From: a virus
Reading direction: 5' to 3' (one strand)
DNA length: 22,565 nt
IMG/VR virus record: IMGVR_UViG_3300011114_000391
Coordinates: 1 to 22,565 of that record
The position numbers and the translations under genes are program-made. The notes beneath the pieces were generated by a model. It ran no database searches. It was not told where the DNA came from and saw nothing but the letters and a program-made list of their open reading frames with translations. This document shows positions 835 to 17,968 of this stretch, one piece after another (positions within the stretch are counted from its first letter, which is position 1; each line of letters begins with the position of its first letter).

Positions 835-1025
835 CTCACACCTCCCAAACTACGAACCCAGGCAGGCTCGGGGTCTTTGACCACGGGCGGGGTCATCTTC
901 TCGCTCGGCGGGGTCCATCCGTACTTGCGCCATGTTGCTTGTACGTCAGCACCGGATGTCCACTTGTAGTCGGGGTGGCCGACGGGAATCCACGGCATGG
1001 TCAGTTTTGCAGTACTCTCACTCAT
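831..1025 (-). CDS. Small hypothetical protein
   Basis: This 64-aa protein (MSESTAKLTMPWIPVGHPDY...) is rich in Pro and Trp, with the segment TWRKYGWTPPSEK in the middle. It has no signal peptide or membrane segment. Its ATG at 1025 overlaps the end of the gene before it by 8 nt, and its TGA overlaps the ATG of the secreted protein. Translation is therefore probably coupled through the whole run. The Trp/Pro content suggests a short extended peptide domain; no family is recognised. Confidence 0.65.
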   Translation of the reverse strand: MSESTAKLTMPWIPVGHPDYKWTSGADVQATWRKYGWTPPSEKMTPPVVKDPEPAWVRSLGGVR

Positions 1026-1860
1026 CTTTGTTCTCCTCGGGCATTATCACGAACGTCGTATCACTAACCTTGAACCCGCAGCCAGTGATGTATTGCTTCT
1101 CGTCTACTAACTTCAGCATGCCTAGCTTTGGTTTCATGAACTCGGGTAGAGTCGCGTCGGTGTACCTAACAATGTTACTCCCTGACTTGACATTGTACAC
1201 TGAATCTTTTTGTGTGACCACAAACGCCTTGAGATTCGCTAGTGCGCTCTCAATTTCTGTCATGCGTTCATACTCTTGATGCATCATGTCCTTATCTACG
1301 ATATGCTCGGCGGCCTTTGGGTTATGGGTAAGTGCGTACTCTAAGAATAGGTTGCGCCCGGCCCCATTGACAAACTCCACCGCCGCCTTGTCCACATGGC
1401 TCTTGAGATGCGAGTACTCGTACCACTTCTTCTGTCGGCAGTCGTGCATCGCTTCCCCGGCTTCCTTCTCTGCCTTGTCCATGATCTCGGCAACAGTCTG
1501 ACTGCTGAACGTCTTTTTGATCTTGGATATGGCCTTGCTCACATCGGCGGTTGAGTAATAACTACGCCGCTCCATCTGCTTGTCGATACGCTCGTTACCC
1601 ACAAGGTACTTGTCCTCTCGACCCACATACCCACGCCGCACATAGCCCAGCACCTCCCCGTCTTTGAGTATGTTGATAGTCCTAAACATGTCGTGGCCAC
1701 GCCATTGCTGTCCGGTCACCTGAAACGTCCACAGCGGCTTGTCTACCATGAACGTATCCAGAATCGGTTTCAACTTCGGGTCGAGCTTCATCTCATCGGG
1801 CAAGTCTTTACCCGTCACCTCGACTCGGTTGTTGTTCTCGTATCCAATCAGCTTCGTCAT
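1018..1860 (-). CDS. Phage hypothetical protein, about 280 aa
   Basis: This 280-aa soluble protein follows the DUF3150-like gene. The junction reads TAAGGAGTAAATGATG, so the previous stop is fused to the Shine-Dalgarno. The second ATG (1860) has the better 6-nt spacing, but 1863 is possible. Visible parts are an N-terminal beta-rich region (WTFQVTGQQWRGHDMFRTI, then VLGYVRRGYVGREDKYLV), a helical middle (AEIMDKAEKEAGEAMHD) and a beta C-terminus. No catalytic motif is obvious. Its place after the VWA and DUF3150-like genes suggests it belongs to the same AAA+/VWA module. It contains a one-mismatch palindrome at 1166-1178. Confidence 0.8.
   Translation of the reverse strand: MTKLIGYENNNRVEVTGKDLPDEMKLDPKLKPILDTFMVDKPLWTFQVTGQQWRGHDMFRTINILKDGEVLGYVRRGYVGREDKYLVGNERIDKQMERRSYYSTADVSKAISKIKKTFSSQTVAEIMDKAEKEAGEAMHDCRQKKWYEYSHLKSHVDKAAVEFVNGAGRNLFLEYALTHNPKAAEHIVDKDMMHQEYERMTEIESALANLKAFVVTQKDSVYNVKSGSNIVRYTDATLPEFMKPKLGMLKLVDEKQYITGCGFKVSDTTFVIMPEENKDE
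1166..1178. repeat. 13-bp palindrome, one mismatch, in CDS
   Basis: CTAACAATGTTAC in the codons for SNIVRYT of the gene at 1018-1860. Confidence 0.75.
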
Positions 1861-1870
1861 CATTTACTCC

Positions 1871-2725
1871 TTACCACTCAAACTTCTTCAGAATTTCATC
1901 GACTTTGGACTTCACTTCTGACCGATAGTGCTTGTCCTCTTTGATACCCTCCATGGTCACCCCTAACATTGTTAGTTCTAATTGCTTACGCGCCTCCTCC
2001 AGCTTGGGATCATTGGTCACGTTCAGCTTGGTCAACAGGCCACACAGCTCCAGCGGGTTGCTGATAAGTGTGTCGTGGTAACGCTTCTTCTCGTCATCTC
2101 CCACTGCGTCAGTCAACTTCTTCGAGATTGTGGATAGCTCAGCATGGAGACGTTCCCACGGCTCGCGGACCGCCTCGGCCAATTTTTCTTTTTGCTGAAC
2201 TTCAAACGACTGCACCAGTTCCTGCATGTCCTCGGCAGGTACATCTAAGCGGAAGTCGCCCGCTTCGGGTACGGGCTTAACAGTACGTCGGAACCCAAAC
2301 TTCAGCTTGACCTCCTCGATGTCCGGGTAGTCCTCGGCCTTGTACAGCTTGCCCAGGTTGACCTGCGACTCCTGCACCAAGCGGGGGTACTCATTAAAGA
2401 ATGTGTCGCACATCTGCTCAAACTGTTGCTCATACGCATTCATGGTTTGCTTGTACTCCATGAATAACTTGGTCGGCAGTAACCGCTCACCCTTGTCCGC
2501 CCAGGGTAACGTATGCTGACTATGGTACAAGCGCGCACGCGCAGCCAACTTCTCGATGTCTTTACGCAGGCTCGTACCGGCAAAAAGATTCTTCTTGGTC
2601 TGCGATGCGTCACGCACTGCTGATGCGTTCGTATTGACTAGATCGGTTGTCTCCCGGTCGACCTTCGACGCAGGCCACACGCTGATGTTCAACTCCACTA
2701 ACACTGCTGATGCACTGATACTCAT
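1871..2725 (-). CDS. DUF3150-like protein of the AAA+/VWA module
   Basis: This 284-aa, mostly alpha-helical protein begins MSISASAVLVELNISVW. It has the conserved-looking KVDRETTDLVN near residue 22 and ARARLYHSQHTLPW near residue 63. From memory this pattern matches DUF3150, a phage/bacterial family that occurs beside MoxR-type ATPases and VWA proteins; no function is established. The start is well defined by AAGGAG-TAAATC-ATG, the same ribosome-binding cassette used by the scaffold gene in the late arm. A perfect palindrome lies within the coding sequence at 1963-1975. Confidence in the gene is high, in the family name moderate. Confidence 0.8.
   Translation of the reverse strand: MSISASAVLVELNISVWPASKVDRETTDLVNTNASAVRDASQTKKNLFAGTSLRKDIEKLAARARLYHSQHTLPWADKGERLLPTKLFMEYKQTMNAYEQQFEQMCDTFFNEYPRLVQESQVNLGKLYKAEDYPDIEEVKLKFGFRRTVKPVPEAGDFRLDVPAEDMQELVQSFEVQQKEKLAEAVREPWERLHAELSTISKKLTDAVGDDEKKRYHDTLISNPLELCGLLTKLNVTNDPKLEEARKQLELTMLGVTMEGIKEDKHYRSEVKSKVDEILKKFEW
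1963..1975. repeat. 13-bp palindrome, perfect, in CDS
   Basis: CTAACATTGTTAG in the C-terminal part of the DUF3150-like gene, encoding LTMLG. Confidence 0.9.
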
Positions 2726-2728
2726 GAT

Positions 2729-2908
2729 TTACTCCTTGGTTTTAACTTCTTCGATTGACTCAACTTCCCAGCTTGCATACGCCGAATCACCTTGGCCCTC
2801 AACTTCACGAAACGCCAACGCTTCCGCTTCCTCCACTGTCTCAGCCTCGACAGTGAACGTGACGTAACTCGTCCGTTGCAACTCCACCTCGTAGGTTTTC
2901 TTGTTCAT
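2729..2908 (-). CDS. Small beta-alpha protein, DpnD/PcfM-like pattern
   Basis: A 59-aa acidic protein starts with ATG at 2908, overlapping the upstream TGA as ATGA, and ends just before the Shine-Dalgarno of the DUF3150-like gene. The segment YEVELQRTSYVTFTVEAET, then VEEAEALAFR, is a two-strand plus helix motif. It recalls small phage/plasmid proteins of the DpnD/PcfM type, where a strand ending in VEAET leads into a helix. The match is a pattern only. It shares this strand-plus-helix plan with several other small proteins of this operon. Confidence 0.7.
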   Translation of the reverse strand: MNKKTYEVELQRTSYVTFTVEAETVEEAEALAFREVEGQGDSAYASWEVESIEEVKTKE

Positions 2909-3114
2909 GATTCATTCTCCATTAAAAGTTTCAAAAATCCGATCGCTGTTTTGCGCTCGTCTACCCACTCCGTGATGACATCAAAGTCATCGTCGTCAAA
3001 TGGCCTTTTCTTCTTAACGACCGCCCACTTACCTGCAAGGTTTAGCAGGCCATACGTGGTGCTCCACCACTTGGGGTCGCATATCCACTCCACTTCAGGT
3101 TTTAGCTTCGCCAT
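2905..3114 (-). CDS. Small hypothetical protein
   Basis: This 69-aa protein (MAKLKPEVEWICDPKWW...) is basic and Trp-rich at the N-terminus, acidic in the middle (KKKRPFDDDDFDVITEW) and ends in a short helix. The ATG at 3114 overlaps the last two bases of the palindrome variant at 3113-3125, and the upstream gene's TAA stop lies in the same motif. A Shine-Dalgarno (GGAGAAGGG) precedes the motif. Longer in-frame starts would run back into the upstream gene and are rejected. No family is recognised. Confidence 0.7.
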   Translation of the reverse strand: MAKLKPEVEWICDPKWWSTTYGLLNLAGKWAVVKKKRPFDDDDFDVITEWVDERKTAIGFLKLLMENES

Positions 3115-3125
3115 AACATTGTTAG
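3113..3125. repeat. 13-bp palindrome, one mismatch, gene junction
   Basis: ATAACATTGTTAG. The minus-strand TAA is the stop of 3122-3373, and the next start ATG (3114) overlaps the motif's end. Confidence 0.85.
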
Positions 3126-3373
3126 CCCTTCTCCGGTTTCCCGGCCAGCTTCGCCATCTGATACATCTCATCAGTGATGATCTTCATGTTGTAGCTCTTG
3201 TCGTTCGGATACACGTGATACGTGTATTCCTCGGTGATGCCCTTCGCAGTACGCTCGTCACGCGACCAGTACTTGTCCTCATACACCTCTGACTTCTCAA
3301 GTAGCTCGACCATCTTGAGCGCGGATTCCCTCGGCATGATTACTTTCTGCCAGCCTAAGTCAATGACAACCAT
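3122..3373 (-). CDS. Small hypothetical protein
   Basis: This 83-aa protein (MVVIDLGWQKVIMPRESALK...) has strand-helix-strand content: a Lys/Glu helix (KMVELLEKSEVYEDKYW), a strand EYTYHVYPND and a final helix ITDEMYQMAKLAG. The start at 3373 is set by GAGAGGA 6 nt upstream, directly after the VWA gene's TGA; longer in-frame starts lie inside the VWA gene. Its TAA stop falls inside a palindrome. The closing strand plus T-D-x-x-x-x-x-A-K-L helix resembles other small proteins between 3.1 and 5.8 kb. Confidence 0.7.
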   Translation of the reverse strand: MVVIDLGWQKVIMPRESALKMVELLEKSEVYEDKYWSRDERTAKGITEEYTYHVYPNDKSYNMKIITDEMYQMAKLAGKPEKG

Positions 3374-3383
3374 GTGATTCCTC

Positions 3384-4595
3384 TCAGTCTTTGATATGTA
3401 TAGTCTTACCATTCGGGGCCGTAACTTCGTTACCGCCAGTGATGCACCAAAGTACAGGGCGAGTCCAATCGCCACCCCAGTCACTACCGACATACCCGTC
3501 TGTAAGAATGATGATGCACTCGGGGTCAATCTTCTTCTCCTTCAGGTACTCAGTGATACAGCTCGGGCTCGTACCACCACCGCCTCGTGGCTTAGTGGAT
3601 TGCACAATATCCCTAACATTGTTAGCCTCGTAGGTCTCATGTCCTGCAACCTCGCAGTCCCAGTACAGCAGGTCAACCTTCTCGGGGTTCACGTCCTCGG
3701 CGATGCACTTCACCTCGGATAAGAACTCCGCCAACTCTGGCCCACCGATGGAACCCGATGTGTCGATTGCTACTACGATGTGACCTACCTTCTCACCGAT
3801 CAAGCTCGGCATGTACATGCCTGTGGATAAGAACCTACGGTTAACCCTGCGCCATGAGCTCGTATCATTGGCACGGCATGCTGACTTCACGAACTCACGC
3901 AACACCTCGCGCCAGTCCACCTTGGGTGCCATCAATTCATCCAGCTCACGGTTGAGTCCACCTGCGCCCTTACCTGCAAGTTTCTGGTGCGCCATCTGAC
4001 CTTGACGGATCGCTTGGTCGATCTCTTTGAGTAGTTGTTTCTTCTCCTCCTCGCTCATCCCCTGCGCATCAGCCCAGTCATGGAAGTCCATCCCATCCTC
4101 GCCGTCTCCGCCGCTCCCGTCATCCTCCTCTTTGAGAATGTCGAACACTTGCTTGGTGTTCATGCCACGGAACCGCTCGTCGATCAAGCCCATCGGGTCG
4201 CCCCGCTTCTTACCAATCTCGGGCATGTCCTTGTCCCACTTGGGCATCTGGATTAGCTTGCCCTCGGGGTCCATGTCTTTCAGCATCAGGTTAATAACGT
4301 AGTCGCAAGCTGCATTGGCCAGGTGATGGCTCTCGTCGTGCAGTTTCTTCCACGTACTCAGGTGTCGATACATCTTGTGCGATGCCTCGTGTGCCACCAC
4401 GAAATTCAACTCCTGATCTTTGAGTCGGGCTACGAACTCACGCCCGTACCGCTCGTCTCGACCATTGGTCGCCGCAGTGGGGATGTCATCGTCCACTCGG
4501 GTCTTGCCTACCATGAGCACGCCAGACAGTAGCGCGAACTTCGGGCTACGCATCAGGCTGATCTTGGCCTTCTGTACTTTACGTTCCTCTAACAT
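3384..4595 (-). CDS. DUF2201-type protein: HExxH metallopeptidase-like plus VWA domain
   Basis: This 403-aa protein has an N-terminal metallopeptidase-like domain with HEASH at residues 69-73, a further His at 78 and NAACDYVIN near 95. An acidic Gly-rich linker follows (about 155-170). The C-terminal von Willebrand A domain carries the metal site D278-T-S-G-S282, T342 and T-D-G at 365-367. This is the DUF2201 arrangement; such proteins work with MoxR-type AAA+ ATPases, here at 5834-6898. All MIDAS residues look intact. The ATG lies inside a perfect palindrome 6 nt after AAAGGA. Substrate and biological role are unknown. Confidence 0.88.
   Translation of the reverse strand: MLEERKVQKAKISLMRSPKFALLSGVLMVGKTRVDDDIPTAATNGRDERYGREFVARLKDQELNFVVAHEASHKMYRHLSTWKKLHDESHHLANAACDYVINLMLKDMDPEGKLIQMPKWDKDMPEIGKKRGDPMGLIDERFRGMNTKQVFDILKEEDDGSGGDGEDGMDFHDWADAQGMSEEEKKQLLKEIDQAIRQGQMAHQKLAGKGAGGLNRELDELMAPKVDWREVLREFVKSACRANDTSSWRRVNRRFLSTGMYMPSLIGEKVGHIVVAIDTSGSIGGPELAEFLSEVKCIAEDVNPEKVDLLYWDCEVAGHETYEANNVRDIVQSTKPRGGGGTSPSCITEYLKEKKIDPECIIILTDGYVGSDWGGDWTRPVLWCITGGNEVTAPNGKTIHIKD
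3613..3625. repeat. 13-bp palindrome, perfect, in CDS
   Basis: CTAACATTGTTAG in the VWA domain codons for EANNVRD. Confidence 0.9.
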
Positions 4596-4601
4596 TGTTA
4601 G
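4589..4601. repeat. 13-bp palindrome, perfect, stop/start junction
   Basis: Its TAA ends 4598-4789 and its ATG starts the VWA gene; AAAGGA precedes it. Confidence 0.92.
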
Positions 4602-4789
4602 TCCTTTCTTTCCATCAACTTGTTAAGCCCACGTGCGTATTTCCACGCACTATCAAGTTTGCTTTTGGTTGCAACCTTCTTGCCTTGGTGTATCACCTCG
4701 TACCGGATGATTTTTTTACCCACTTGTCTCACCCACGCAGGGTCGTACCTGTACTCCCTACCATCATCGTCAGTTGTGACATACGTCAT
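4598..4789 (-). CDS. Small basic hypothetical protein
   Basis: This 63-aa protein (MTYVTTDDDGREYRYDPAWV...) has beta strands (KKIIRYEVIHQGKKVATKS) and a final helix KLDSAWKYARGLNKLM. A G-rich stretch after AAG precedes the ATG. Its TAA stop is the TAA of the palindrome at 4589-4601, whose ATG starts the VWA gene, so the two are separated by two bases. The strand-plus-helix ending groups it with the other small proteins of this region. No family name is known to me. Confidence 0.7.
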   Translation of the reverse strand: MTYVTTDDDGREYRYDPAWVRQVGKKIIRYEVIHQGKKVATKSKLDSAWKYARGLNKLMERKD

Positions 4790-4799
4790 ACCACCCCCC

Positions 4800-4991
4800 T
4801 TAAACTAAATACGGACTGTCTTCGCCGTCTGCGTTATACATACGACTGAATACATCGCACATATACCTAGCTGTGTGCCTTGTGTATGCTTTGTGTAGCA
4901 CCTTCCCATGCGGGGTCTCCCGAGTCTGGTAGATGGTCTCAAATGCTTTTCGCAGTTTTATCTTTCGCCGCTTTCGCATCTGCTTCTGCAT
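4800..4991 (-). CDS. Very basic small protein
   Basis: This 63-aa protein starts MQKQMRKRRKIKLRKAF and is strongly basic in its first 20 residues, which suggests nucleic-acid binding. The rest (YQTRETPHGKVLHKAYTRH) is also basic, with an acidic end. The start at 4991 has GGAGGAG about 4 nt upstream; the longer in-frame start at 5024 is less likely. It overlaps the gene at 4939-5160 by 53 nt in another frame, unusual here, so one of the two boundaries may be wrong. Confidence 0.55.
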   Translation of the reverse strand: MQKQMRKRRKIKLRKAFETIYQTRETPHGKVLHKAYTRHTARYMCDVFSRMYNADGEDSPYLV

Positions 4992-5160
4992 AGTGCTCCT
5001 CCTGTGTGTTAAGTAACTTCGCAATAGCTAGCGCCGTCTCCTGATCTGGATACGTTGCAACCGTCATGTTGTCGAACTTTGACCAGTCAACTACATCCCA
5101 CCCGGTGATGCGCAACTCTCCACCCTCAACGGATGTTCTCCATCTGATTGAATACCTCAT
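4939..5160 (-). CDS. Small beta-rich plus helix protein
   Basis: This 73-aa protein opens with a beta-rich half (MRYSIRWRTSVEGGELRITGW) and continues with TVATYPDQETALAIAKLLN, a T-x-x-x-x-x-x-A helix. The tail is rich in Ala and Lys and may be disordered. Its ATG overlaps the TGA of the preceding gene as ATGA. The plan matches the proteins at 5157-5423, 5426-5659 and 5643-5837, which suggests a divergent paralogous series. Function is unknown. Confidence 0.65.
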   Translation of the reverse strand: MRYSIRWRTSVEGGELRITGWDVVDWSKFDNMTVATYPDQETALAIAKLLNTQEEHYAEADAKAAKDKTAKSI

Positions 5161-5423
5161 TGCTTGGCCTCACTGATTAACATGGTCAGCATCAGCTCGG
5201 CATGCTTGGGGTCGGTCGTCTCAAACAGTACGTGACGGGCTCGGTCGCTGTCCCACCTCACCACTACGCACCGATACTCAACGCCTCCACCAAACATGCT
5301 CCGCTCCATGATCAACTGATACTGGATGGTGTACTTCTGCAAGAACTTGTGAGCATTGATCACAAGCTCCCACTCGTCGGGGATGTCCTTCCAAAATTTG
5401 TGACTGAATGGCGCCCATAACAT
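5157..5423 (-). CDS. Small protein starting inside a palindrome
   Basis: This 88-aa protein begins MLWAPFSHKFWKDIPDEWEL. A helix is followed by strands YTIQYQLIMERS and YRCVVVRWDS, then the helix TDPKHAELMLTMLISEA. The ATG at 5423 is the ATG of the motif at 5417-5429, with GAAGGA 6 nt upstream, and the TAA of the preceding gene lies in the same motif. Its second half follows the strand-plus-helix plan of its neighbours. Function is unknown. Confidence 0.7.
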   Translation of the reverse strand: MLWAPFSHKFWKDIPDEWELVINAHKFLQKYTIQYQLIMERSMFGGGVEYRCVVVRWDSDRARHVLFETTDPKHAELMLTMLISEAKQ

Positions 5424-5429
5424 TGTTAG
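5417..5429. repeat. 13-bp palindrome, one mismatch, stop/start junction
   Basis: Its TAA ends 5426-5659 and its ATG starts 5157-5423; GAAGGA precedes it. Confidence 0.88.
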
Positions 5430-5659
5430 TCCTTCGTCGGTAGTACCAAGTTGATGTAGTTGTTCAGCTCGTCCAAGCTCTCGGTCTCGTAGATGATGGG
5501 GTAGCCCCCTTCGTCGTCCATTCGGTGCAGGGTATACGTACGCACTCCTGTCTTGTCATCCTTGAACGCCCCCGCCGCATACCCGGCTCGGTTCAAGGCA
5601 AGAGTTGTCTGGTTTGACTCCAGCCACACACCATCCTCAAACTCAACGCTCCACTTCAT
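5426..5659 (-). CDS. Small beta-rich plus helix protein
   Basis: This 77-aa protein reads MKWSVEFEDGVWLESNQTTL and continues with strands around VRTYTLHRMDD and YPIIYETES, then the helix SLDELNNYINLVL. The ATG at 5659 is 14 nt inside the end of the preceding gene, with GAAG upstream as a weak ribosome-binding site. Its TAA is the palindrome's stop codon. It belongs to the apparent paralogous series between 4.6 and 5.8 kb. No enzyme motif is present. Confidence 0.68.
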   Translation of the reverse strand: MKWSVEFEDGVWLESNQTTLALNRAGYAAGAFKDDKTGVRTYTLHRMDDEGGYPIIYETESLDELNNYINLVLPTKD

Positions 5660-5837
5660 CTTCGTGCTCCGTTTGCTTGTTGTAAAAGTCGGCTAGGCGA
5701 TGGGCTTCGTGCATGTCAGTGTGCTCAGAGACGACGTTGCCGTCGCCCCAACTTTTACCAATGACTATCTGATAGACAAACGGGCGCACAAAGTACATCC
5801 CCCCCTTCTTCATACGCACCCAGGCCCAACGCTTCAC
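5643..5837 (-). CDS. Small beta-rich plus helix protein (GTG start)
   Basis: This 64-aa basic protein (initiator, then KRWAWVRMKKGGMYFVRPF) has strands followed by HTDMHEAHRLADFYNK, the same helix seen in its neighbours. It starts with GTG at 5837, overlapping the ATPase gene's TGA as GTGA, so its translation is likely coupled to the ATPase. No internal Shine-Dalgarno is obvious. Function is unknown; adjacency to the AAA+ gene makes an adaptor or substrate role conceivable, as pure inference. Confidence 0.65.
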   Translation of the reverse strand: MKRWAWVRMKKGGMYFVRPFVYQIVIGKSWGDGNVVSEHTDMHEAHRLADFYNKQTEHEDEVER

Positions 5838-6898
5838 AGCAGGTCTTGGTTCTTTGCAACCCAGTCGGCGAACGCCTTACAGCTGAACGCGATGGATTGT
5901 TTGCTCGGTGTCTTGGCGATGTTGATAGCGAACACCGCTTGCCACTCTGCATCGAACCGCTCCAGGTACTCCATGAATGGAGTGATGGTCTCCTTAGTGA
6001 TCCGGCTGATTGCACCAAACACTACGATCGCACATGCACCAGGGCTCGACGGAATCTCGGTCTTGGCCGGGTCTTTGATCGTCGCCTCCCATGTCGGCAG
6101 TTGATCTGCGAACTCGATGTACGCTTGCATGTCACGTGCACCTGCTTCGCCAATAGCACCAGTCAACGCCGCGATGATGGTATCGGCATCCAACTCACGA
6201 CGTGCCCTAACAATGTTAGACGCGGTCGCCAATGAGCGTGGGGATACGAACGCATTCTGATGCTTGCGTGGGTTGTAGATATACGGGTTGTCCGCTTGCG
6301 CCGGGTCGGTGTAACTCGCAAAGATATGCGGATACTGATTCGCCCATGCCAACACCTCGGCCTCGATGCCGTGATTGATACCCCACTCGATCCATTCCTC
6401 AGCAGTGGGTTTAGCGATGGTGACGGGTACAAGTCGGTTGCGGCTATGTGCTTTGAGGGAGTCACCCACACCATCAGTCGTCAGGTTGCCAGTCAGGAAC
6501 ACGATCGAATTCTTGTCGATCGAAATGTCACCGAGTCGGGGATTGGCCTTCTCAAGCATTGGGTGAAGCATATTCTTCACCGGGTCTGCACCCTTGGTGA
6601 ACTCATCTAGCATGATCACCACCGGCTTACCCTCGTGCACCTTGAACCGGGCGTTCGGATAGTAGCGGGTTGTCCGGGTCTCGTGGTCGATCACCGGCAT
6701 GGCAATGTCGCCCAAGTCCATATTCGGTACGTCGATATACGCATGGTCGTAGCCCAGATCACCAGCAATGGATTCCAAGATTGAGCTTTTGCCAATCCCT
6801 GGTTCCCCCTGGAGTAAAAATCTGGTCTCGGGGTTGGTCTTGATCAACTGAGCGGCTTGCTTCAGGGTGATGGTTTTGCCGAACATTACTTCTGACAT
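5834..6898 (-). CDS. MoxR-type AAA+ ATPase
   Basis: This 354-aa protein has Walker A GEPGIGKS (31-38), Walker B IMLDEF (95-100), sensor-1 FLTGN (134-138), an arginine-finger-like HSRNR (151-155) and SPRSL, a possible sensor-2 helix. The layout matches the MoxR branch of AAA+ proteins, which remodel or activate partner proteins together with VWA-domain proteins. The VWA partner is encoded 1.2 kb downstream in the same operon. The start is supported by GGAG 8 nt upstream. It is the first gene after promoter P1, whose leader contains a palindrome; another copy lies in the coding sequence at 6207-6219. Confidence 0.9.
   Translation of the reverse strand: MSEVMFGKTITLKQAAQLIKTNPETRFLLQGEPGIGKSSILESIAGDLGYDHAYIDVPNMDLGDIAMPVIDHETRTTRYYPNARFKVHEGKPVVIMLDEFTKGADPVKNMLHPMLEKANPRLGDISIDKNSIVFLTGNLTTDGVGDSLKAHSRNRLVPVTIAKPTAEEWIEWGINHGIEAEVLAWANQYPHIFASYTDPAQADNPYIYNPRKHQNAFVSPRSLATASNIVRARRELDADTIIAALTGAIGEAGARDMQAYIEFADQLPTWEATIKDPAKTEIPSSPGACAIVVFGAISRITKETITPFMEYLERFDAEWQAVFAINIAKTPSKQSIAFSCKAFADWVAKNQDLL
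6207..6219. repeat. 13-bp palindrome, perfect, in CDS
   Basis: CTAACAATGTTAG in the AAA+ ATPase codons for SNIVRA. Confidence 0.9.
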
Positions 6899-6922: not shown

Positions 6923-6935
6923 ATAACATTGTTAG
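6923..6935. repeat. 13-bp palindrome, one mismatch, P1 leader
   Basis: Centred at 6929, 47 bp below the downstream edge of the P1 -10 box (6976), between promoter and ATPase start. Confidence 0.88.
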
Positions 6936-6975: not shown

Positions 6976-7004
6976 ATTATACCACGGGAACTTAACATTG
7001 TCAA
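6976..7004 (-). promoter_or_regulatory. P1, consensus sigma70 promoter
   Basis: On the minus strand TTGACA (6999-7004) and TATAAT (6976-6981) are separated by 17 bp, with TGG before the -10 as an extended -10. This is a perfect consensus match. It faces the AAA+ ATPase gene and the operon down to 1. The -35 and first spacer bases read TTGACAATGTTAAG, sharing ACAATGTTA with the dispersed palindrome, so a palindrome-binding protein could compete with polymerase here. Confidence 0.88.
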
Positions 7005-10353: not shown

Positions 10354-10842
10354 TCAAAGCCATGCGTCTGTCAGTGCTTGCATCGCTTCGTCCTTGTCTT
10401 CACTCTTGTGAGAGCGTGTGTATTCGTAGACGGCTCGTCGGTACAGAACAGCTAGCTGTACCTTCTCTCGTTTGGCCATGGCAACTGCGTCGGCTCGGAT
10501 GTTTGGGTATCGCTTGGGGAAGATGAACGACACCATCACAGGTCGGGACGGGGCCATCGCATACGGAGGGAGCGCGGGGGGTTTCAGGATGGATGGGTTA
10601 TCGAGCACCTCGGCAATCGCACGGACGCATACCTTGGAAACCGACATGCTTTTGTCTTTAGCGTAGCTTCTGAGTTGGCTGTTCAGTGCACCGGACATGA
10701 TGAACGTGCCGACATTGGTCAGGCGCAGGGCTTTGGGATCGGCATGTGCGCTAGGTTTTGTATTGTTACGTTTCTCTGGGTCAGGTTGGGCAGCCTTGGT
10801 ATTGTTACGTTTTATGATGTCTTGAATGATGCGGTCTAACAT
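10354..10842 (-). CDS. Tandem ribbon-helix-helix DNA-binding protein
   Basis: This 162-aa basic protein appears to hold two ribbon-helix-helix units: residues about 44-82 (VGTFIMS strand, LNSQLRSYAKDKSM and SVSKVCVRAIAEVL helices) and about 101-145 (VMVSFIFP strand, IRADAVAMAKREKV and AVLYRRAVYEYTRS helices). Two such units in one chain recall TraY-like proteins. The N-terminus repeats KRNNTK twice because its codons contain two ACGTAACAATAC repeats also found upstream. The ATG at 10842 is in a palindrome variant, 9 nt after AAAGGA. An autoregulator, partition or origin-binding protein is likely; which one is open. Confidence 0.75.
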   Translation of the reverse strand: MLDRIIQDIIKRNNTKAAQPDPEKRNNTKPSAHADPKALRLTNVGTFIMSGALNSQLRSYAKDKSMSVSKVCVRAIAEVLDNPSILKPPALPPYAMAPSRPVMVSFIFPKRYPNIRADAVAMAKREKVQLAVLYRRAVYEYTRSHKSEDKDEAMQALTDAWL

Positions 10843-11667: not shown

Positions 11668-12201
11668 TTACTTGACCATGGTCAGGTCGACACCCAGGGC
11701 TTGCAGTGCCGAGGCGATATGCGTCTGAGCTTGCGACTGCTTGGCATCGAGGTTATTTTTGTCGGCCTCACGCTTGCAGGCCTTGAACAATGCGGACAAG
11801 TCTTCGACCAGTCGCAGGGACAGCGAGCGGATTTGCTTCGTCCCGGCCTTGTCGCCGTCACCTTCGCCGGATTCGCCGTCACCGCTAGCGGCCTCGGGTT
11901 CGCCTTCGACTAGCTTGCGGCCTTCGTTACGTACCCGTGTCCAGATGACCGAGGGGTTTTTATGCCCCGCTTCACGCAGGGTTTTGCGGAACTTATCGGC
12001 CTCGGCGAGAATACCCTTCGCGGCCTCGGCCTTGTCGCCGTACTCGTACATGTACCAATCGCTCGGGAAAAACCGGGTTAGGGTCTCCGCGTATTCCCGC
12101 ACCGCGCCATATTGACGGGTGACGGTATCGGCCACTGCCGTACGGCAGGGTGCAAGTGCGGCCTCGGCCGCATCGGTGGTGGTGATTACTTGAGTGTTCA
12201 T
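11668..12201 (-). CDS. P3-driven helical hypothetical protein
   Basis: This 177-aa protein is Ala/Lys/Glu-rich and mostly helical. Landmarks are FFPSDWYMYEYGDKAEAAKGIL near residue 44, an acidic Gly-rich linker (GDGESGEGDGDKAG, about 112-125) and a C-terminal helical domain (SLSLRLVEDLSALFKACKRE). No signal, membrane segment or catalytic motif is visible. The ATG at 12201 has only a weak GAGG upstream. The leader contains a perfect palindrome 47 bp below the promoter. Its own promoter and position suggest an abundant early protein, for instance DNA-binding or host-interacting, but no family is recognised. Confidence 0.75.
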   Translation of the reverse strand: MNTQVITTTDAAEAALAPCRTAVADTVTRQYGAVREYAETLTRFFPSDWYMYEYGDKAEAAKGILAEADKFRKTLREAGHKNPSVIWTRVRNEGRKLVEGEPEAASGDGESGEGDGDKAGTKQIRSLSLRLVEDLSALFKACKREADKNNLDAKQSQAQTHIASALQALGVDLTMVK

Positions 12202-17368: not shown

Positions 17369-17565
17369 GCATTGACACCCGTGCGCTAGCGCACGTGCAA
17401 AAGGAAATTGATAAATTGCGGCAAGAGCAAGTTGCTTTCCTCGCTGCCAGCCGTGCTGATACCTACGATGAGTACAAAAAAATCTGCGGAGTGATCCGAG
17501 GTCTAAGCCTTGCAGATTCCATCATCAATGACCTCGTGCAAAGACTGGAGCACTCGGATGAGTGA
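17365..17565 (+). CDS. Small coiled-coil protein after portal
   Basis: This 66-aa protein (MSIDTRALAHVQKEIDKLRQ) is predicted to be a helical hairpin, with a second helix around GLSLADSIINDLVQRLEH. AAGGAG lies 5 nt before the ATG, which overlaps the portal TGA (ATGA). Tiny helical proteins occur at this place in several phages and may help head assembly, but no function is known. The next gene overlaps it by 8 nt. Confidence 0.7.
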   Translation: MSIDTRALAHVQKEIDKLRQEQVAFLAASRADTYDEYKKICGVIRGLSLADSIINDLVQRLEHSDE

Positions 17566-17968
17566 GTTTGATGTTACCGCTGTAGACCTTTCTGGCGTTC
17601 TGAATAAGTCCGCCGAGGAGAAAGCGAAGCAGCTGCCTGATCCTGCTGGTTTTATGCTACTAACTGTGGTCCCCGAGGCTATGGAAGAGTACGCTGACAG
17701 TGATGTTGGGATTGTTAAATCGGGTAAGGAAATCTGGAAAGAAGAGATGCTGACCCCGGTGTTGTTTGTGGTCAAGATGGGCCCCGAAGCCTATCAAGAC
17801 AAGACGCGGTTCCCTAGCGGGCCCCGTTGCAAAATCGGTGACTTTGTCATCGTTCGCCCCAATTCAGGTACCCGCCTGAAGATTCATGGCCGTGAGTTCC
17901 GCATCATCAACGATGATTCGGTCGAAGGCACTGTGCAAGACCCGCGTGGAATTACCCGCGCTGCTTAA
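17558..17968 (+). CDS. GroES-like co-chaperonin
   Basis: This 136-aa protein has a Cpn10-like body from about residue 27 to 127. FMLLTVVPEAMEE stands where GroES has its first strand, and VGIVKSGKE plus the following residues match the mobile loop. VLFVVKMGPEAY resembles the VVAVGPG strand, and CKIGDFVIVRPNSGTRLKIH with FRIINDDSVEGTV resembles the GroES C-terminal half. Phage Cpn10 proteins such as T4 gp31 replace GroES so that the capsid protein can fold in GroEL. A place between portal and scaffold fits. The start overlaps the preceding gene by 8 nt; an upstream ATG at 17510 is rejected. Confidence 0.7.
   Translation: MSEFDVTAVDLSGVLNKSAEEKAKQLPDPAGFMLLTVVPEAMEEYADSDVGIVKSGKEIWKEEMLTPVLFVVKMGPEAYQDKTRFPSGPRCKIGDFVIVRPNSGTRLKIHGREFRIINDDSVEGTVQDPRGITRAA

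Follow-up and report, generated by a model that had tools for sequence, protein, structure and literature searches.

A known phage MoxR/VWA pair embedded in a conserved four-gene unit with a fast-evolving fourth component

Pairs of a MoxR-type AAA+ ATPase and a protein carrying a zincin-like and a VWA domain are already known and common in phages, as gp24/gp25 in N4-like phages and in the group 2.2 jumbo phages (Iyer et al. 2021, PMC7824862). For the jumbo-phage pair, virion assembly and proteolytic processing were proposed by analogy to the pair serving tail assembly in the Acidianus two-tailed virus (PMC7824862), and N4 gp24 and gp25 were reported as middle genes (PMC4193335). Hundreds of sequenced phages carry such pairs with no known client. 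Here, we analyzed the IMG/VR record IMGVR_UViG_3300011114_000391, a tailed-phage contig of 22.6 kb that is referred to in its whole length (22,565 nucleotides) as the window. It encodes the same two proteins (PHROG 1297 and 1314), the VWA protein again with its metallopeptidase domain at the N terminus, together with a DUF3150-like protein and a fourth protein without family, P280. The quartet differs from the jumbo-phage and N4-like pairs by the presence of DUF3150 and P280, by its location in the early/replication arm of the genome and by MoxR and VWA proteins that form clades of their own. It is a known phage pair embedded in a four-part unit, and DUF3150 and P280 as constant partners of the pair are new here; no description of the four-part unit was found in the literature searched, which covered few subscription journals.

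RavA-ViaA and other bacterial MoxR-VWA chaperones share with the quartet a motor and a VWA cochaperone, a general resemblance drawn without sequence comparison. To our knowledge, RavA-ViaA-type systems contain no DUF2201_N, DUF3150 or P280. The VMAP/iSTAND/FtsH ternary systems likewise combine MoxR, VWA and a third protein (PMC7159879), whereas the third proteins of the present unit are DUF3150 and P280, which were not recognized as VMAP, iSTAND or FtsH, the unit occurs in phages and plasmids, and no effector domains were seen. An initial annotation of the window had pointed to related ternary systems in conflict systems; membership in these was not supported, as no such partner was recognized and the PADLOC results were unconvincing. 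The DUF3150-like protein and P280 gave no convincing match in Pfam, PADLOC or NCBIfam, a search that lay outside the VMAP, iSTAND and FtsH families' own profiles.

The four large genes were all found on the minus strand within one phage-borne operon, as the initial annotation had described. The MoxR gene (5834-6898) encodes a protein of 354 amino acids with a Walker A motif, GEPGIGKS, and the expected Walker B pair D98/E99. The protein scored above the cut-off for Pfam AAA_5/AAA (AAA_5, 24.5 bits against 22) and matched PHROG 1297, named 'ATPase', with an E value of 4e-45. In the alignment of its relatives (A4) D98 is invariant, while G31, G34, G36 and K37 are at least 90% conserved. An AAA core with both Walker motifs and a VWA gene that is always near identify the protein as MoxR-type, and the families and the pairing of the genes support the protein-remodelling machine previously suggested.

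The VWA gene (3384-4595) encodes a protein of 403 amino acids in which a zincin-like domain is fused to a VWA domain, and which matches Pfam DUF2201_N (94.1 bits, cut-off 23.2) and DUF2201 (66.0 bits, cut-off 26.4) over nearly its full length. Both the HExxH motif (HEASH, H69-E70-x-x-H73) and the intact VWA site (D278-T-S-G-S282) that had been claimed are present. Alignment with its relatives (A3) showed that the metal-site residues D278, S280, S282, T342 and D366 are invariant and that H69, E70 and H73 are at least 90% conserved, HExxH being present in the aligned phage copies. The zincin-VWA family PHROG 1314 is named 'HNH endonuclease', a label carried by many RefSeq phage records. An HNH endonuclease is almost certainly not what the 403-residue protein is, since the proposal is based on the annotation name only, no HNH motif, domain or model was matched in Pfam by the window member, the DUF2201 matches cover nearly the whole length and the conserved residues belong to the zincin motif and the VWA metal site; this identity was rejected as contradicted by the sequence.

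The third gene (1871-2725) encodes the DUF3150-like protein, 284 amino acids long, whose largely helical model (pLDDT, predicted local distance difference test, 77.5) is of lower confidence than that of P280. The fourth gene (1018-1863) encodes P280, the previously noted uncharacterized 280-residue protein, which has 281 amino acids and no family. In its AlphaFold2 model, a confident one (pLDDT 92.9), residues 124-209 form a long helical hairpin that is flanked by a beta-sheet domain at the N terminus and a beta domain at the C terminus. In the viral structure library BFVD good matches were obtained with proteins of uncultured phages only; a weak match to N4 gp8 (E 0.14) was not used.

The conservation of the unit was then evaluated in relatives. 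The search of IMG/VR with DUF3150 returned 162 relatives, the best 80 of which were analyzed, and the search with VWA returned 14; synteny was counted with iterated profiles on those contigs only that extended far enough. MoxR occurred upstream in 33/33 cases, VWA in 51/51 and P280 downstream in 83/84, so that the genes expected by the initial annotation to be kept together in relatives are indeed together. The order MoxR-VWA-DUF3150-P280 is near-constant, with the exception of one locus (L098) that reads DUF3150-MoxR-VWA. Three further loci (L094-L096) keep P280 and have in the DUF3150 slot a 320-residue open reading frame (ORF) without detectable similarity. In phylogenetic trees the MoxR and VWA proteins of quartet-bearing phages each formed one clade with support of 100/100, and the plasmid versions described below formed another. 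P280 on its own returned no relatives by tblastn against 50,697 phage records or by a peptide scan of IMG/VR, its relatives being recovered only through synteny with DUF3150. At the level of sequence comparison, the four genes were shown to be a conserved unit, all under purifying selection. In 10 of the 12 long relatives, a fast-evolving fifth gene of about 310-340 codons and no family lies directly upstream of MoxR (for instance at 9575-10504 of L106 and 4039-4968 of L110); this gene is absent from the window.

Relatives of the VWA protein occur in 774 phage records, many of them N4-like, with MoxR adjacent or nearby in the records inspected, while DUF3150 was found in only three records of cultivated phages, of identical length and with cyanobacterial hosts, and on 42 plasmids. 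A cultivated relative, MinM2, has MoxR, DUF3150 and VWA. Ten Burkholderiales plasmids were inspected (L099-L101, L115-L121), and on all ten the genes run MoxR, DUF3150, VWA along one strand. The three genes are adjacent in nine of them, the exception being Simplicispira; on the L120 plasmid the MoxR gene is unannotated and reads as two pieces. All three plasmid proteins are homologous to those of the phages (DUF3150 profile, E 1e-44 to 1e-64). The plasmid trio, for which no paper was found, differs in its order (MoxR-DUF3150-VWA against MoxR-VWA-DUF3150 in phages), in the absence of P280 from the stretches analyzed of the ten plasmids, in the loss of HExxH in some members and in its location near type IV secretion and PRTRC genes. 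A VirB11-like ATPase, VirB2, VirB3 and VirB4 are encoded within about 1.4 kb downstream of the trio on seven of the ten plasmids, and a PRTRC ThiF gene is present on eight. In two plasmid VWA genes (L100, 9914-11191, and L101, 8938-10224) HExxH is degraded and the VWA metal site is intact, which indicates that proteolysis is not the shared core function. The shared core would rather be remodelling by MoxR, DUF3150 and VWA, with proteolysis or virion assembly unlikely as a universal function. That plasmids carry the trio, in most cases next to conjugation genes, speaks against a role in the virion only and points to a core function that is not tied to virions. A scan of genome contigs with DUF3150 returned one short uninformative match, in a Clostridiaceae metagenome-assembled genome. 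A link to CobS/CobT genes in SXT elements was rejected, as no paper was found.

P280 evolves far faster than its neighbours. Mean pairwise identities, all taken over one set of 42 loci, were 78% for MoxR, 71% for VWA, 72% for DUF3150 and 35% for P280. The ratio of nonsynonymous to synonymous substitutions (dN/dS) in closer pairs ranged from 0.03 to 0.17 for MoxR and from 0.17 to 0.46 for P280, indicating that P280 is a real protein, constrained yet fast. In one pair of loci (L058/L059) the VWA genes are 97% identical and the P280 proteins 48%; the synonymous divergence (dS) of P280 was 1.28 as compared with 0.16-0.45 for the neighbouring genes, which marks the allele as exchanged. An identity of 35% against more than 70% for the neighbours is what we would expect of a target-selecting subunit, the role that we propose for P280.

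The operon is preceded by a sigma-70 promoter, TTGACA-N17-TATAAT with an extended -10 (TG), matching the consensus at 12/12 positions (6976-7004, minus strand, reading 7004-6976), which ends 77 bases before the MoxR start. Only 0.003 sites of this kind would be expected by chance in 12.6 kb. Of 47 other viral contigs in which the region upstream of MoxR was compared, 39 had at least 10/12 promoter matches there, and 37 of these 39 had the TG and the 17-bp spacer. The description of this promoter as the strongest one agrees with its full match and its conservation in most relatives. From 12.6 kb on, the plus strand of the window bears terminase, portal, GroES-like, coat and further virion genes, while the minus strand from 12.2 kb down to 0 is a dense run of mainly small genes that includes the operon, which therefore lies on the strand opposite to the terminase, portal and capsid genes. 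In two relatives of 66 kb the arm with the operon points away from the virion genes and towards those for DNA polymerase, exonuclease, helicase and primase, and in the N4-like phage LIT1 the MoxR/VWA pair directly precedes helicase and DNA polymerase. Because of the promoter type and the position in the early/replication arm, the operon is probably expressed early, which supports the initial annotation on this point.

From the observed composition, linkage, genomic context and evolutionary rates we infer complex formation, catalysis, a role for P280 and a target, and tentatively propose, at a little under an even chance, that the quartet is a four-part ATP-driven remodelling machine, made early, in which P280 selects the target, probably a host or replication complex and not the virion. 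By family precedent, MoxR would form the AAA+ ring that acts as motor, the VWA protein would dock on this ring and grip the target or an adaptor through its metal site, and the N-terminal zincin-like domain would hold or clip the substrate. DUF3150 may be a core subunit in this MoxR-VWA branch, because both in phages and on plasmids it occurs with the pair. P280, which is fast-evolving, exchangeable and seen only in phages, would pick the target and tune the machine to the host or partner proteins of each phage, the target most likely being a host or replication complex handled early. The quartet with its exchangeable P280 offers a direct handle for a client search, with P280 alleles as bait and in swaps.

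Several points weigh against this proposal. For none of the four proteins did we find data on interactions or phenotypes. Relaxed constraint instead of target choice could explain the speed of P280, whose dN/dS is below 1. The models of P280 and DUF3150 gave no significant match against the PDB with Foldseek and VIA-align; resemblances of P280 residues 13-122 to YdhG/frataxin (Z 6.7) and of DUF3150 to helical bundles were within noise and were discarded. The DUF3150-like protein scored 20.0 bits over residues 7-202, below the Pfam cut-off of 24.9 (PF11348), so that 'DUF3150-like', the term of the initial annotation, is the right wording. The Pfam DUF3150 model had no match at E 0.001 in twelve whole records, where the controls were equally silent, and a plasmid homologue named DUF3150 by NCBI (L117) matched the profile of the phage family with an E value of 1.6e-44. 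Finally, in phage S-TIM5 the MoxR-VWA pair has for neighbours Hsp20 and a protein with a virion-structural annotation, a context that fits a virion role.

This last context, the domain architecture shared with the jumbo-phage pair (PMC7824862), the HExxH motif kept in the aligned phage copies and a GroES-like gene in the structural operon, which suggests that the window phage uses assembly chaperones, would all suit a virion-assembly chaperone with a zincin domain that cuts structural proteins, the function proposed for the group 2.2 jumbo phages. We consider such a function unlikely for the window, where the operon occupies the early/replication arm behind a strong host-type promoter and where capsid and terminase are conserved and P280 is not; moreover, MoxR-DUF3150-VWA is found on plasmids, which have no virions, and two of these have lost HExxH and retained the metal site. 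A virion role is possible in other lineages, as the S-TIM5 context indicates, and fits poorly here.

The same promoter and early arm, the fast and exchanged P280, the sharing with conjugative plasmids, against which the same defences are directed, and the existence of MoxR-vWA systems in prokaryotic conflicts (PMC7159879) could instead point to dedicated counter-defence, the machine dismantling or blocking host immune complexes with P280 diversifying alongside. We give this explanation a low probability, since no known anti-defence protein was recognized as related (PADLOC returned short P-loop matches only) and nothing points to any specific defence. Anti-defence genes are usually patchy in distribution, whereas nearly every relative has the unit. 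Takeover of host function or defence against host immunity, the two purposes suggested by the initial annotation, may either of them apply. Insertion of a cofactor or metal centre, for which MoxR/CoxD/chelatase-type AAA+ and VWA pairs set a family precedent (PMC7159879), is very improbable, as none of the constant neighbours seen was a gene for a metalloenzyme or cofactor, and on plasmids the neighbours are conjugation and PRTRC genes.

Besides the remodelling machine, the window contains an array of palindromes, TAACAWTGTTA (usually CTAACA-W-TGTTAG), with 20 exact copies between 808 and 12369 and none in the virion region; 0.4 copies would be expected by chance even with one mismatch allowed. 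TTGACAATGTT was wrong as the repeated element. A copy, TAACATTGTTA, lies operator-like between the promoter and the MoxR start (6924-6934), and another with one mismatch overlaps the -35 element of the promoter (6993-7003). Several palindromes supply the stop of one gene and the start of the next, such as the copy at 4590-4600, which provides the VWA start codon and the stop codon of the preceding gene, and others are intragenic: within MoxR (6208-6218, conserved at the DNA level), within VWA (3614-3624, exact only in the window and L005) and within DUF3150 (1964-1974). In long relatives the sites are restricted to one early arm (G003, 5.5-24.3 of 66 kb; G007, 31.3-42.9 of 61 kb; G019, 28.9-39.3 of 48 kb), where a reversed control pattern gave none or one; palindromes were also present in G005 and others.

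The half-sites are separated by 1 bp in 37 loci, 2 bp in 29 and 3 bp in four, with four mixed; most phages use a single spacing and a few mix 1 and 2. The 1-bp version is CTAACAATGTTAG, as distinct from the 2- and 3-bp versions. The 1-bp site in the DUF3150 gene is exact in 36/38 relatives with mostly spacing 1 and in 1/33 with spacing 2 or 3 (Fisher p 1e-16, uncorrected for relatedness, the site itself counting towards the class where sites are few). In most of these 33, identical or closely similar residues (LTMLG or LAMLG) are specified by different codons. This indicates selection on DNA and not on protein. The palindromes are probably an operator array. Mycobacteriophage stoperators, which the phage repressor binds to block transcription, are likewise many short dispersed sites, some at promoters and most not, but they are asymmetric and oriented with transcription (PMC6550527), whereas the window sites are palindromic and not oriented.

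The best candidate for the palindrome-binding protein is a putative regulator of 177 amino acids (family A6; 11668-12201, minus strand) at the head of the early arm, adjoining the small terminase gene. Its family, with a conserved NPSxxWxRVRxYA-like stretch, was found in 20 site-bearing contigs and in 0/9 without sites, and one long contig of the latter group (G032) spans the corresponding position beside the terminase genes; many site-bearing contigs lacking the protein are fragments that end before its position. No DNA-binding domain was recognized in the window copy with Pfam. An ORF of 162 codons at 10354-10842 (minus strand), whose start codon is overlapped by a palindrome, is related to L106 6825-7283, in which RHH_1 scores above cut-off; as a universal tandem ribbon-helix-helix regulator it was rejected, being present in only 5/39 contigs. 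The array represents a second, independently testable system, with a regulator whose sites differ among relatives mainly by spacing. In a broader scheme, MoxR-DUF3150-VWA would be a machine with which both phages and conjugative plasmids remodel a host complex early, as they enter; phages would add P280 as an exchangeable subunit for targeting, and a new kind of palindromic operator array within the machine genes would govern the operon in these phages, its spacing having switched between relatives like an immunity type; taken as a whole, we regard this scheme as speculative and rather unlikely.

Nine small ORFs, and not eight as initially counted, are interspersed in the operon on the minus strand. 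Between MoxR and VWA they are located at 5643-5837 (64 amino acids, few relatives), 5426-5659 (77 amino acids, a tandem pair in the relatives L011, L012 and L047), 5157-5423 (88 amino acids, matches in 31 loci), 4939-5160 (73 amino acids, matches in 24 loci), 4800-5024 (74 amino acids, no relatives found) and 4598-4789 (63 amino acids, its stop codon in one palindrome with the VWA start). The remaining three follow VWA, at 3122-3412 (about 96 amino acids, start uncertain), 2905-3114 (about 69 amino acids if the start is the ATG within the junction palindrome) and 2729-2908 (59 amino acids, weak match to PHROG 10718). Five of them had been considered one series. Profile-profile comparison gave marginal support for four (2905, 4939, 5157 and 5426), with pair probabilities of 43-60% where a signal was seen, and the paralogy of five was dropped. 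The small genes between the large ones are gained and lost among relatives, and conservation with the module is seen for a minority only. Elsewhere in the window, the GroES-like co-chaperonin gene (PHROG 3188; 17510-17968, plus strand) follows the portal gene within the virion cluster, and in the early arm of the relative G003 a gene at L106 8335-8901 encodes a relative of P22 NinX (Pfam Phage_P22_NinX, E 1e-23).

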